A stretch of DNA of 36,731 bases from Granulicella sp. (GTDB lineage: Bacteria; Acidobacteriota; Terriglobia; Terriglobales; Acidobacteriaceae): contig PLOT01000174.1 of the NCBI GenBank assembly GCA_003142215.1, positions 1-36,731 of the forward strand, read 5' to 3'. The notes beneath the pieces were generated by a model. It saw only the letters and a list, made by a program, of their open reading frames with translations, was not told the DNA's origin and did not search any database. The translations under genes and the position numbers were made by a program. The stretch's first letter is position 1; every line of letters begins with the position of its first letter. This document shows positions 1 through 3,093 of the stretch, piece by piece.

Positions 1-899
1 GCCGCCTCGATCACCAGCATCCCGTTGGGCAGCACCTCCACCACCTGCCCGCCCAGCGTCGTCGTCAGGCTGGAGTTGCTCGCGCTCGCGCCCTGCGCGT
101 TCAACGCCGACGCGGAGTTCTGGTTCACCAGGTTCTGCAGCGCGTTGCCCGAGTGCAGTGTCCCGATCAGCCCGGAGATCCCCGAGTTCGCACTCGTCGC
201 CCGCGAGTTCTTCACCGTCCCATCGGTCGATGCCGCCAGGTTCTCCGACACCACCACCGAGATCAGATCGTGCGGCCGCATCGCCCGCACATCGGTCGAC
301 ATCCGCGTCAACCGGCCCGATTCCGTCCAGATCGCGCCCGAGGTCGACTGCGCGGCCTTGTTCTCCAGCCGCACGCGCGTCAGATAAGCCTCCAGCGACG
401 AGGCTGCCGGATCGCTGCCCGCGCTCAGAGGTTTCGCGTTCGGTTTGGCCTTCGTCGCCGCAGGCACCACGGTCGCCGCAGGCACCGCAGTCGCCGCGCG
501 CTCCGCAGTCGCCGCGGGCAGCGCGGTTGTTACCGGCACCGTAGCCGCTACGAGAACGATGGGAGCTGTGGACGTCTGCCCCCAGACGCTCGAAGTCATC
601 AGTAGCACCAACAGCACGCCAAACCATCCAACCATGGCTCTCGCCAATCCAACCGGTCTCAATCCATCTGGTCTCAATCCATCCGACCCCATGCCATCTG
701 GCTTCAATTCAGGCCGGGACATCGTCATCCGTCCGGGGGCCGCGCTCTCCTGGGCTGGCAGCTTTACCTGACGATTCTGCTCGACGGCCCGCGACTGCAA
801 GAACAGCCGATGCAATTCCTCTCTCTCTTCCTCCGAGCCGCACTCTTTCAGTGCTGCGTTGTAGGCATCCATCGTCATCGGCCTCAGTCGTATCTTCAT
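1..899 (-). CDS. flgH: Flagellar L-ring protein FlgH, with N-terminal extension; 3' end cut by window edge
   Basis: FlgH forms the outer-membrane L ring around the flagellar rod. Seen: the minus-strand frame is open from 899 to the left edge. It contains the FlgH signatures SGAIWTESGRL (the usual GSLW region), DLISVVVSENLAAS and VVEVLPNGMLVIEA. The start at 899 overlaps the flgA stop as ATGA and has GGAG 8 nt upstream. The first ~88 residues are hydrophilic and not FlgH-like. A signal-peptide-like stretch (MVGWFGVLLVLLMTSSVWGQ) begins only at an internal ATG at 635; other in-frame ATGs lie at 692 and 728. No lipobox cysteine is visible, although FlgH is usually a lipoprotein. It follows flgF, flgG and flgA, the usual order; flgI should lie beyond the edge. 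Family assignment is firm; which start is used in vivo is not. Confidence 0.9.
   Translation of the reverse strand, partial: MKIRLRPMTMDAYNAALKECGSEEEREELHRLFLQSRAVEQNRQVKLPAQESAAPGRMTMSRPELKPDGMGSDGLRPDGLRPVGLARAMVGWFGVLLVLLMTSSVWGQTSTAPIVLVAATVPVTTALPAATAERAATAVPAATVVPAATKAKPNAKPLSAGSDPAASSLEAYLTRVRLENKAAQSTSGAIWTESGRLTRMSTDVRAMRPHDLISVVVSENLAASTDGTVKNSRATSANSGISGLIGTLHSGNALQNLVNQNSASALNAQGASASNSSLTTTLGGQVVEVLPNGMLVIEA
645..704 (-). repeat. Four degenerate 15-bp tandem units in the flgH extension
   Basis: Units start at 645, 660, 675 and 690, each close to caatccatctggtct on the plus strand. Read as flgH they encode pentapeptides of the form (R/K)P-D-G-L/M just before the signal-peptide-like segment. 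The period is a multiple of three, so copy-number change keeps the frame. Confidence 0.75.
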
Positions 900-1459
900 C
901 GTTCCATCTCCACGTCCCCGGCTCCGCGCACAATTCCACCGATGCGTTCCACCGTCATGCCCGAGTCCTCGCTCTGCCGCGCGATCTGCACCACCACGCG
1001 CTCCCCGCCGCGCGCCGATTGCTCCACCACGCCGCTCATCTCGATGCGCACCCTCTCATCCTGCGACCAAAGCCTTACGCGATCTCCCGCATGGACCAGC
1101 AATGGCTGCACTGTCAGCGCAACCTCCTTCGTCCCGGCCACTCCATCCCGCGCCGTCGTGCCCGCTCCCGCCGCACTCCCCGCAACCGATCGCGCCGGCC
1201 ACTCCGGGTGAGCGCACGCCTGGCGCATCTCCCAACCCCGTCCAAGCAGCACATCCCACTGCCGGGCCACCACTCGATAACCCTGCGCCCCGCATCCCGC
1301 CTGCACCGCCGCGACAGCCTGAGCCTGCGCGACAGCCGTCCCTGGCCACGCGACCGCGCACCCCGCCTGCAACATTCCCGTCAGTAACATTCCTGTCAGC
1401 AACATTCCCGTCAACAACATTCCCGTCAGCAACGCAGCACTGAACCCGCCTCGCCTCAT
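896..1459 (-). CDS. flgA: Flagellar P-ring assembly chaperone FlgA
   Basis: FlgA is the periplasmic chaperone for P-ring (FlgI) assembly. Seen: 187 residues. The C-terminal SAF-like half contains VQPLLVHAGDRVRLWSQDE, a segment VRIEMSGVVEQSARGGE and a final GGIVRGAGDVEMER, matching the usual FlgA ending. ATG 1459 is chosen because GGAGG lies 6 nt upstream and the start falls 13 nt after the flgG stop; an earlier in-frame start at 1519 would overlap flgG. The N-terminus is a signal peptide whose hydrophobic core is built from LTGML repeats. The stop overlaps the flgH start (ATGA), implying translational coupling. It is a little shorter than the typical ~220 residues. Confidence 0.88.
   Translation of the reverse strand: MRRGGFSAALLTGMLLTGMLLTGMLLTGMLQAGCAVAWPGTAVAQAQAVAAVQAGCGAQGYRVVARQWDVLLGRGWEMRQACAHPEWPARSVAGSAAGAGTTARDGVAGTKEVALTVQPLLVHAGDRVRLWSQDERVRIEMSGVVEQSARGGERVVVQIARQSEDSGMTVERIGGIVRGAGDVEMER
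1371..1430 (-). repeat. Four 15-bp tandem repeats encoding LTGML in the FlgA signal peptide
   Basis: Units begin at 1371, 1386, 1401 and 1416. Each is aacattcccgtcagc with at most two changes. On the minus strand they encode repeated L-T-G-M-L, forming the hydrophobic core of the FlgA signal peptide. Confidence 0.9.
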
Positions 1460-1472
1460 CGCCAGCCTCCAA

Positions 1473-2261
1473 TCACCGCACCATGCCGTTGATCTGCGAG
1501 TACATGTCGTCGGCCACATGCACCACCTTCGAGTTGCTCTCGTACGCCCGCTGCGCCAGGATCATGTTGACGAACTCGGCCACCACATCCACGTTCGAGT
1601 TCTCCAGATAGCCCTGCTGCAGCATCCCCATTCCGCTGCTTCCTCCCGGCACGTCCGTGATCGCGTTGCCCGACGACGAGGTCGGCTGTAGCAGGTTTCC
1701 CCCCAGCGAGTTCAGCCCCCCCGGATTGGGGAACGTCGCCAACTGGATCGTCCCCAACTGGCTCGACACCGTCTGCCCCGGCAGCGTCGCCGATACGACG
1801 CCGTACTCCGAGATCGTCACATTCGTCGCATTCGATGGAATCGTCACCGCCGGCAGCAGTTGATTCCCGTTGGCATCCGTCACCACCCCAGCGTTGTTCA
1901 TGTTGAAGTTCCCATCGCGCGTATAGGCGATCGTCCCGTTGGGCAACTGCACCTGGAAGAACCCCGCCCCCTGGATCGCAAGGTCCAGTTGGTTCCCCGT
2001 CTGGGTGAAGTCGCCCTGAGTCATAATCACCTCGCTCGCGGTCGATTTGGTCCCAAGTCCGATCTGCAGTCCCGCAGCGGTCGTCGACGTGCTCGCCGCC
2101 GATCCTGGAGCCACCAGGTTCTGGTAGATCATGTCCTCGAACTGCATCTTGCGACTGCGAAAACCCGATGTCGCCGAGTTCGCCAGATTGTTGGCCACCG
2201 TATCCAGGTTGGCCTGCTGTGCGCTCATCCCGCTTGCCGCCGTGTACAATGCTCGTATCAT
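1473..2261 (-). CDS. flgG: Flagellar distal rod protein FlgG
   Basis: FlgG builds the distal rod of the flagellar axle. Seen: 262 residues (E. coli FlgG is 260). The N-terminal rod signature MIRALYTAASGMSAQQANLD is followed by TVANNLANSATSGF. The core contains GDFTQTGNQLDLAIQGAGFF and YTRDGNFNMN. The C-terminus has the SNVDVVAEFVNMILAQRAYE heptad region that coils with the N-terminus in axial proteins. The ATG at 2261 has an AGGGAG-like ribosome site about 6 nt upstream. It lies between flgF and flgA, as in many flagellar operons. Confidence 0.97.
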   Translation of the reverse strand: MIRALYTAASGMSAQQANLDTVANNLANSATSGFRSRKMQFEDMIYQNLVAPGSAASTSTTAAGLQIGLGTKSTASEVIMTQGDFTQTGNQLDLAIQGAGFFQVQLPNGTIAYTRDGNFNMNNAGVVTDANGNQLLPAVTIPSNATNVTISEYGVVSATLPGQTVSSQLGTIQLATFPNPGGLNSLGGNLLQPTSSSGNAITDVPGGSSGMGMLQQGYLENSNVDVVAEFVNMILAQRAYESNSKVVHVADDMYSQINGMVR

Positions 2262-2328: not shown

Positions 2329-3081
2329 CTAGACCCGCCCAAGTTCCTCCGTCGCCGTCTTGTCGAAGTCGTTGTAAAACACGCTCAACGCCTTCTGCAT
2401 CATCTCTCCCTGGCGCTGCACCAGGATCAGTTGCATCGTCCCATGCACCGCGTCCAGGTTCGCTCCCTCCAGCGCGCCCTGCTCCACCGGCGCCGACACC
2501 ACCGCCGGCTGCACTCCATCGGGCGCAGCGAACCGGTTTGTCCCCTGCGCCATCAGCTCTGTCCCGGCGGGAAATCCGAAAACGCCAACCTGTCCGGCAA
2601 TCGCGCTCACCCCTGCGCTCGTCACCGAGACGCTCCCGTCCGGCCCCACGTTGATCGTGCCGCTGGGAATCGTGATCGCCTGACCGCCGACGTCCAGCAC
2701 CGGCTCGCCCTCCGCCGTCTGGAGCACTCCCGTATCGGAGCGCAGAAACGCCCCATCCCGCGTATATTGCACGCCCTGGGCCGATTGAATCGCAAAAAAC
2801 CCCGGCCCGTTCAGCGCCATGTCCAGCGGATTGCCCGTCGCCGTCACGGTGCCCTGTCCCAGATCGATCCGGTTTCCGCCCAGCACGCCGAAGTCGTTGA
2901 CCGCGTCGCCCACCTGCGAGGGAGACTCCTCGTTCTCACTGCCCGCCAGAACGCTGCGGAAGTAGTCCCGCTGCGCGCGAAATCCCACCGTCCCGGCGTT
3001 CGCCAGATTGTTGGCTGCCGTATCCAGCGCCTGCGTCCGCGCCAGCAACCCGGTGTATGCGGCATAGAGCCCACTGTCCAT
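2329..3081 (-). CDS. flgF: Flagellar proximal rod protein FlgF
   Basis: FlgF is a proximal rod subunit. Seen: about 250 residues, starting MDSGLYAAYTGLLARTQALD, followed by TAANNLANAGTVGFRAQRDY. The middle has GNPLDMALNGPGFFAIQ and YTRDGAFLRSDTG. The end has GANLDAVHGTMQLILVQRQGE. It is distinct from, but paralogous to, the neighbouring FlgG. ATG 3081 is preferred because family members begin M-D-x-x-L-Y; a TTG at 3093 is in frame but would lie upstream of the predicted transcription start. No Shine-Dalgarno sequence is visible, so translation may be leaderless or nearly so. It heads the flgF-flgG-flgA-flgH block. Confidence 0.93.
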   Translation of the reverse strand: MDSGLYAAYTGLLARTQALDTAANNLANAGTVGFRAQRDYFRSVLAGSENEESPSQVGDAVNDFGVLGGNRIDLGQGTVTATGNPLDMALNGPGFFAIQSAQGVQYTRDGAFLRSDTGVLQTAEGEPVLDVGGQAITIPSGTINVGPDGSVSVTSAGVSAIAGQVGVFGFPAGTELMAQGTNRFAAPDGVQPAVVSAPVEQGALEGANLDAVHGTMQLILVQRQGEMMQKALSVFYNDFDKTATEELGRV

Positions 3082-3093
3082 GCCGTGGTTCAA

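Follow-up and report, generated by a model that had tools for sequence, protein, structure and literature searches.

The flgH gene of this Granulicella genome, from a soil-type acidobacterium, raises the question of how a flagellar L-ring protein comes to be preceded, within one uninterrupted frame, by about 88 residues that lie ahead of its signal-peptide-like segment. The window (the whole stretch of DNA that was analysed, 36,731 nucleotides) is contig C217 of a draft MAG (3.64 Mb, 329 contigs; completeness 83.7%, contamination 5.6%). Among named genomes, a Granulicella MAG and other Acidobacteriaceae come closest to it. The features described here are on its minus strand, where the order is a flgF-like gene (3093..2329), flgG (2261..1473), flgA for the P-ring chaperone (1459..896), and flgH (899..3). 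The flgG product matches Pfam Flg_bb_rod, LlgE_F_G_D1 and Flg_bbr_C. FlgA is matched by Pfam ChapFlgA with an E value of 1.5e-4, just below its cut-off, and by TIGR03170 with an E value of 4.8e-5, also below its cut-off; its C-terminus, VRGxxxVE, is kept in orthologs. A 7-bp tandem repeat (ACCCCTT, 3.9 copies) is present at 2293-2319 between the flgF-like gene and flgG. The flgH gene is cut by the contig end at position 3, and no stop interrupts its frame between 899 and that end (299 aa). Contig C23 shares an exact 23-base end overlap with the window, and the flgH frame continues on it. Joined across both contigs, flgH encodes about 367 aa in all and is followed on C23 by flgI, which gives it the gene context of a flagellar P/L-ring set (flgG, flgA, flgH, flgI).

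The identity of FlgH is given by a PF02107 match of 75.2 bits (cut-off 27), with the remainder on C23 scoring 66.9 bits. The match begins at residue 185 of the frame from ATG 899, and the first part of the conserved domain (3..359) covers PF02107 positions 2-105 in the window and 100-170 on C23. The domain is preceded by an Ala/Thr/Pro-rich linker (360..575) that holds an 18-bp tandem repeat at 454-524. Two relatives, L077 and L112, have a very long linker rich in Pro/Ala, with more than 120 residues separating the conserved domain from the FlgH signal. Ahead of the linker lies the signal-peptide-like segment MVGWFGVLLVLLMTSSVWG/QT (576..635), and ahead of that the pre-signal extension, or n-region, of about 88 residues (636..899), which contains no known domain. 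The hydrophobic core, located by hydropathy, starts at about residue 90 with a mean KD of 2.6, and a putative V-W-G/Q signal peptidase I site, with cleavage before QT, was picked by eye. The preliminary description had placed a signal-like segment at residue 89, and its coordinates are right, M89 being ATG 635.

The frame from ATG 899 had also been said to overlap flgA in an ATGA, to have GGAG ahead of it and to run without a stop into flgH, and all of this was confirmed on the sequence. The ATG (897..899) overlaps the TGA stop of flgA in the context ggggacgtGGAGatggaacgATGAAG and is homologous across the genus. A GGAG-containing Shine-Dalgarno-like site (904..913) stands ahead of it; its predicted anti-SD duplex (-9.0 kcal/mol) is stronger than the ortholog median (-7.6). 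An open stretch of 87 codons has a probability of about 0.03 under a dinucleotide model, so that openness by itself is weak evidence of translation. The flgG-flgA-flgH loci of relatives were gathered from 62 genomes of the genus, 54 of which gave a match, and from part of the family. The resulting set has 64 distinct FlgH sequences with at least 57% identity, made up of 63 orthologs and that of the window. Overlap between the flgH start and the flgA stop was seen in 54 of these 64. In 63 the two lie within 20 nt of each other, a count that is partly built in because each ortholog was assigned the in-frame start closest to the end of flgA. The sole exception, L090, had a poor automatic flgA call. 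An ATG in the exact -1 register on the flgA stop was found in 46/64, mostly with GGAG ahead, and GTGGAG occupies the same place in most orthologs; this recurring arrangement is not produced by the start-picking rule. The window start site, GTGGAGATGGAACGATGA, fits the ortholog pattern of an overlapping start with GTGGAG ahead. The comparison of flgA-flgH junctions thus bears out the coupling of flgH to flgA, and a flgH start that overlaps or adjoins the flgA stop is, judging from the compared loci, the ancestral arrangement. It is this conserved start position in relatives, and not openness, that provides strong evidence for the predicted start at 899.

The main rival is an internal flgH start in the window species, at ATG 635 or, for example, at TTG 815; the upstream frame would then be an untranslated spacer or a coupled leader, whether translated or vestigial. 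Further in-frame ATGs are available at 692, 722, 728, 872 and 878. Starting at M89, which immediately precedes the core, FlgH would have a signal peptide of the usual size, like that of relatives with 2-8 residues there, and the Shine-Dalgarno-like site of TTG 815 (-9.5) is as good as that of 899. Codon composition also leans this way, since GC3 is weaker in the extension (0.67) than in flgG (0.83) and in mature FlgH (0.94). Against this, ATG 635 has a poorer Shine-Dalgarno-like site (-5.9) than ATG 899, a ribosome that has begun at 899 meets no stop ahead of flgH, and the start that corresponds in relatives is the one overlapping flgA. An internal start is considered unlikely.

The extension is carried by the window sequence only, and the coding test rests on the n-regions of relatives. 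Four largely independent pairs whose n-regions (about 40-46 residues) can be aligned gave dN/dS values of 0.60 (L071-L074), 0.24 (L102-L104), 0.13 (L091-L097) and 0.20 (L067-L110), which indicates that the n-region is translated there. Pooled over relatives, pN was 0.24 and pS 0.57, replacement sites being slower than silent ones, and in the dN/dS pairs the dN of mature FlgH was far below that of the n-region. The n-region of relatives is, by these substitution patterns, translated, weakly constrained and fast-evolving.

Length is what sets the window apart. The residues ahead of the hydrophobic core number 2-63 in relatives against 89 in the window, and among the 64 orthologs the next longest region has 63 and all others have 49 or fewer. 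The long, flgA-coupled segment ahead of the signal-like core had been correctly described, and it is an outlier. The expectation that a cytoplasmic extension would be strange for FlgH did not hold, as pre-signal regions of 30-50 residues are common in the group and show coding-type evolution. In a tree of FlgG and FlgH, the window pairs with L083 (support 100/96), and the length of the pre-signal region shifts many times over the tree. The FlgH of this sister is 82% identical and has an equal flgA end and ATGAA start, with a pre-signal region of 6 residues. DNA alignment of the two showed that the flgA ends and ATGAA match and that the extra length lies directly after the start. The window is the extreme end of a freely varying continuum of lengths; the extension is real and of an ordinary kind, though extreme in degree.

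Some of the extra length consists of repeats. A 15-bp tandem repeat of 2.7 copies (LRPDG/LRPVG; Tandem Repeats Finder score 68) at 645..685 makes up about 41 bp of the extension. Similar repeats of 15-18 bp occur in the flgA signal region and in the FlgH linker; in the FlgA signal peptide (1369-1433) a 15-bp tandem repeat encodes LLTGM four times. The flgA-flgH junction looks prone to slippage, and with such repeats in the extension, flgA and the linker, slippage explains part of the gain and not all of it.

A second rival is the fusion of a separate small gene to flgH, which would have given FlgH a new cytoplasmic domain. The extension is stop-free and extreme in length, and part of it, SEEEREELHRLFLQSRAVEQN, is acidic and helix-like, which is untypical of an n-region. 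Searches for relatives speak against such an origin. No match to the extension was found in Pfam or NCBIfam and no significant match in PDB, so nothing usable came of the suggestion that it might be a known domain. Protein and DNA searches of 62 genus genomes returned no relatives, none convincing was found in 300 family genomes, and no other copy exists in the genome itself. The marginal protein matches at family level (best E 8e-4), several of them running across stop codons, were treated as chance, as was an exact match of 20 DNA bases to one relative (E 0.007). Nor did the relatives that were read show a separate small gene between flgA and flgH; in them the coupled ORF after flgA is flgH. 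With no such gene there and no free-standing homolog of the extension in the 62 genus genomes, the fusion proposed in the preliminary description is mostly refuted; it is rejected on present evidence and has become very improbable.

An assembly or sequencing artefact, either a chimera or a spurious insertion, was weighed in view of the draft state of this fragmented MAG, its contamination, and the contig break in flgH only 900 bp away. The flanking flgA and flgH are both in frame and of the same lineage, however, and the segment is without another copy in the genome. A frameshift is not needed and was ruled out as the cause of the extension, since the nucleotide distance from flgA to the signal core is itself longer. 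An artefact has the slightest chance of all the explanations weighed.

The extension is probably a lineage-specific lengthening of the cytoplasmic n-region of a Sec signal, translated from the coupled start at 899 and removed by signal peptidase I; for the window species, we infer the initiation at 899, the export and the cleavage. Translation would begin at ATG 899, coupled to flgA through the ATGA overlap as elsewhere in the genus, and the 88 or so extra residues would form an elongated n-region on a Sec (SPase I) signal sequence that is otherwise ordinary. The hydrophobic segment from about residue 90 would insert into the Sec translocon and mature FlgH would be exported, with cleavage at the likely V-W-G/Q site. 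The n-region would stay in the cytoplasm and be discarded with the cleaved signal peptide, and L-ring assembly is therefore proposed to be unaffected. Being poorly constrained, the n-region may drift in length by insertions and repeat expansion, the window lineage having the longest seen. A functional cytoplasmic regulatory segment of pre-FlgH, recent and unique to the lineage, is a further reading with very little probability; it might, for example, delay export until the rod is ready, or bind FlgA or a chaperone.

Other FlgH proteins (PF02107) of Granulicella and other Acidobacteriaceae share with the window the flgG-flgA-flgH order, the ATGA start, and a pre-signal region that leads into a hydrophobic core with no lipobox; they differ in having 2-63 pre-signal residues rather than 89. 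Enterobacterial FlgH is a lipoprotein with a short lipoprotein signal and a lipobox Cys. The L-ring protein domain is common to both, whereas the window FlgH has no lipobox and a long pre-signal region. No Cys occurs near the core in the window, and a strict lipobox was found in only 2/64 orthologs (L083 and L118), nearly all others being without one (e.g., L087, L102, L110). The missing lipobox is a lineage-wide difference and not a membership criterion for PF02107. Long Sec-type signals with an N-terminal extension (extended signal peptide region, ESPR) of about 25 residues have been reported in autotransporters (PMC2805444). The window protein resembles these in that a Sec-type signal peptide is preceded by an N-terminal extension; unlike them, it is not an autotransporter or two-partner secretion (type V) protein, Pfam finding FlgH only. 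The ESPR is conserved in sequence, whereas the window extension shows no sequence conservation.

In Acidobacteriaceae, FlgH starts at a position tied to the flgA stop, and its n-region ahead of the signal core ranges from 2 to almost 90 residues. This cautions against calling fusions or trimming start sites on the strength of one genome, and the series of FlgH n-regions is natural material for testing what length of Sec n-region is possible. The gene is otherwise ordinary; its long leader is mildly curious and is not read as a gene fusion. Some genus genomes (L007, L012 and others: G264, G296, G309, G321, G339; G336, G340, G341) also have a second FlgH that is divergent (about 35-42% identity), a few genomes showing the divergent FlgH only, which suggests a second flagellar gene set.
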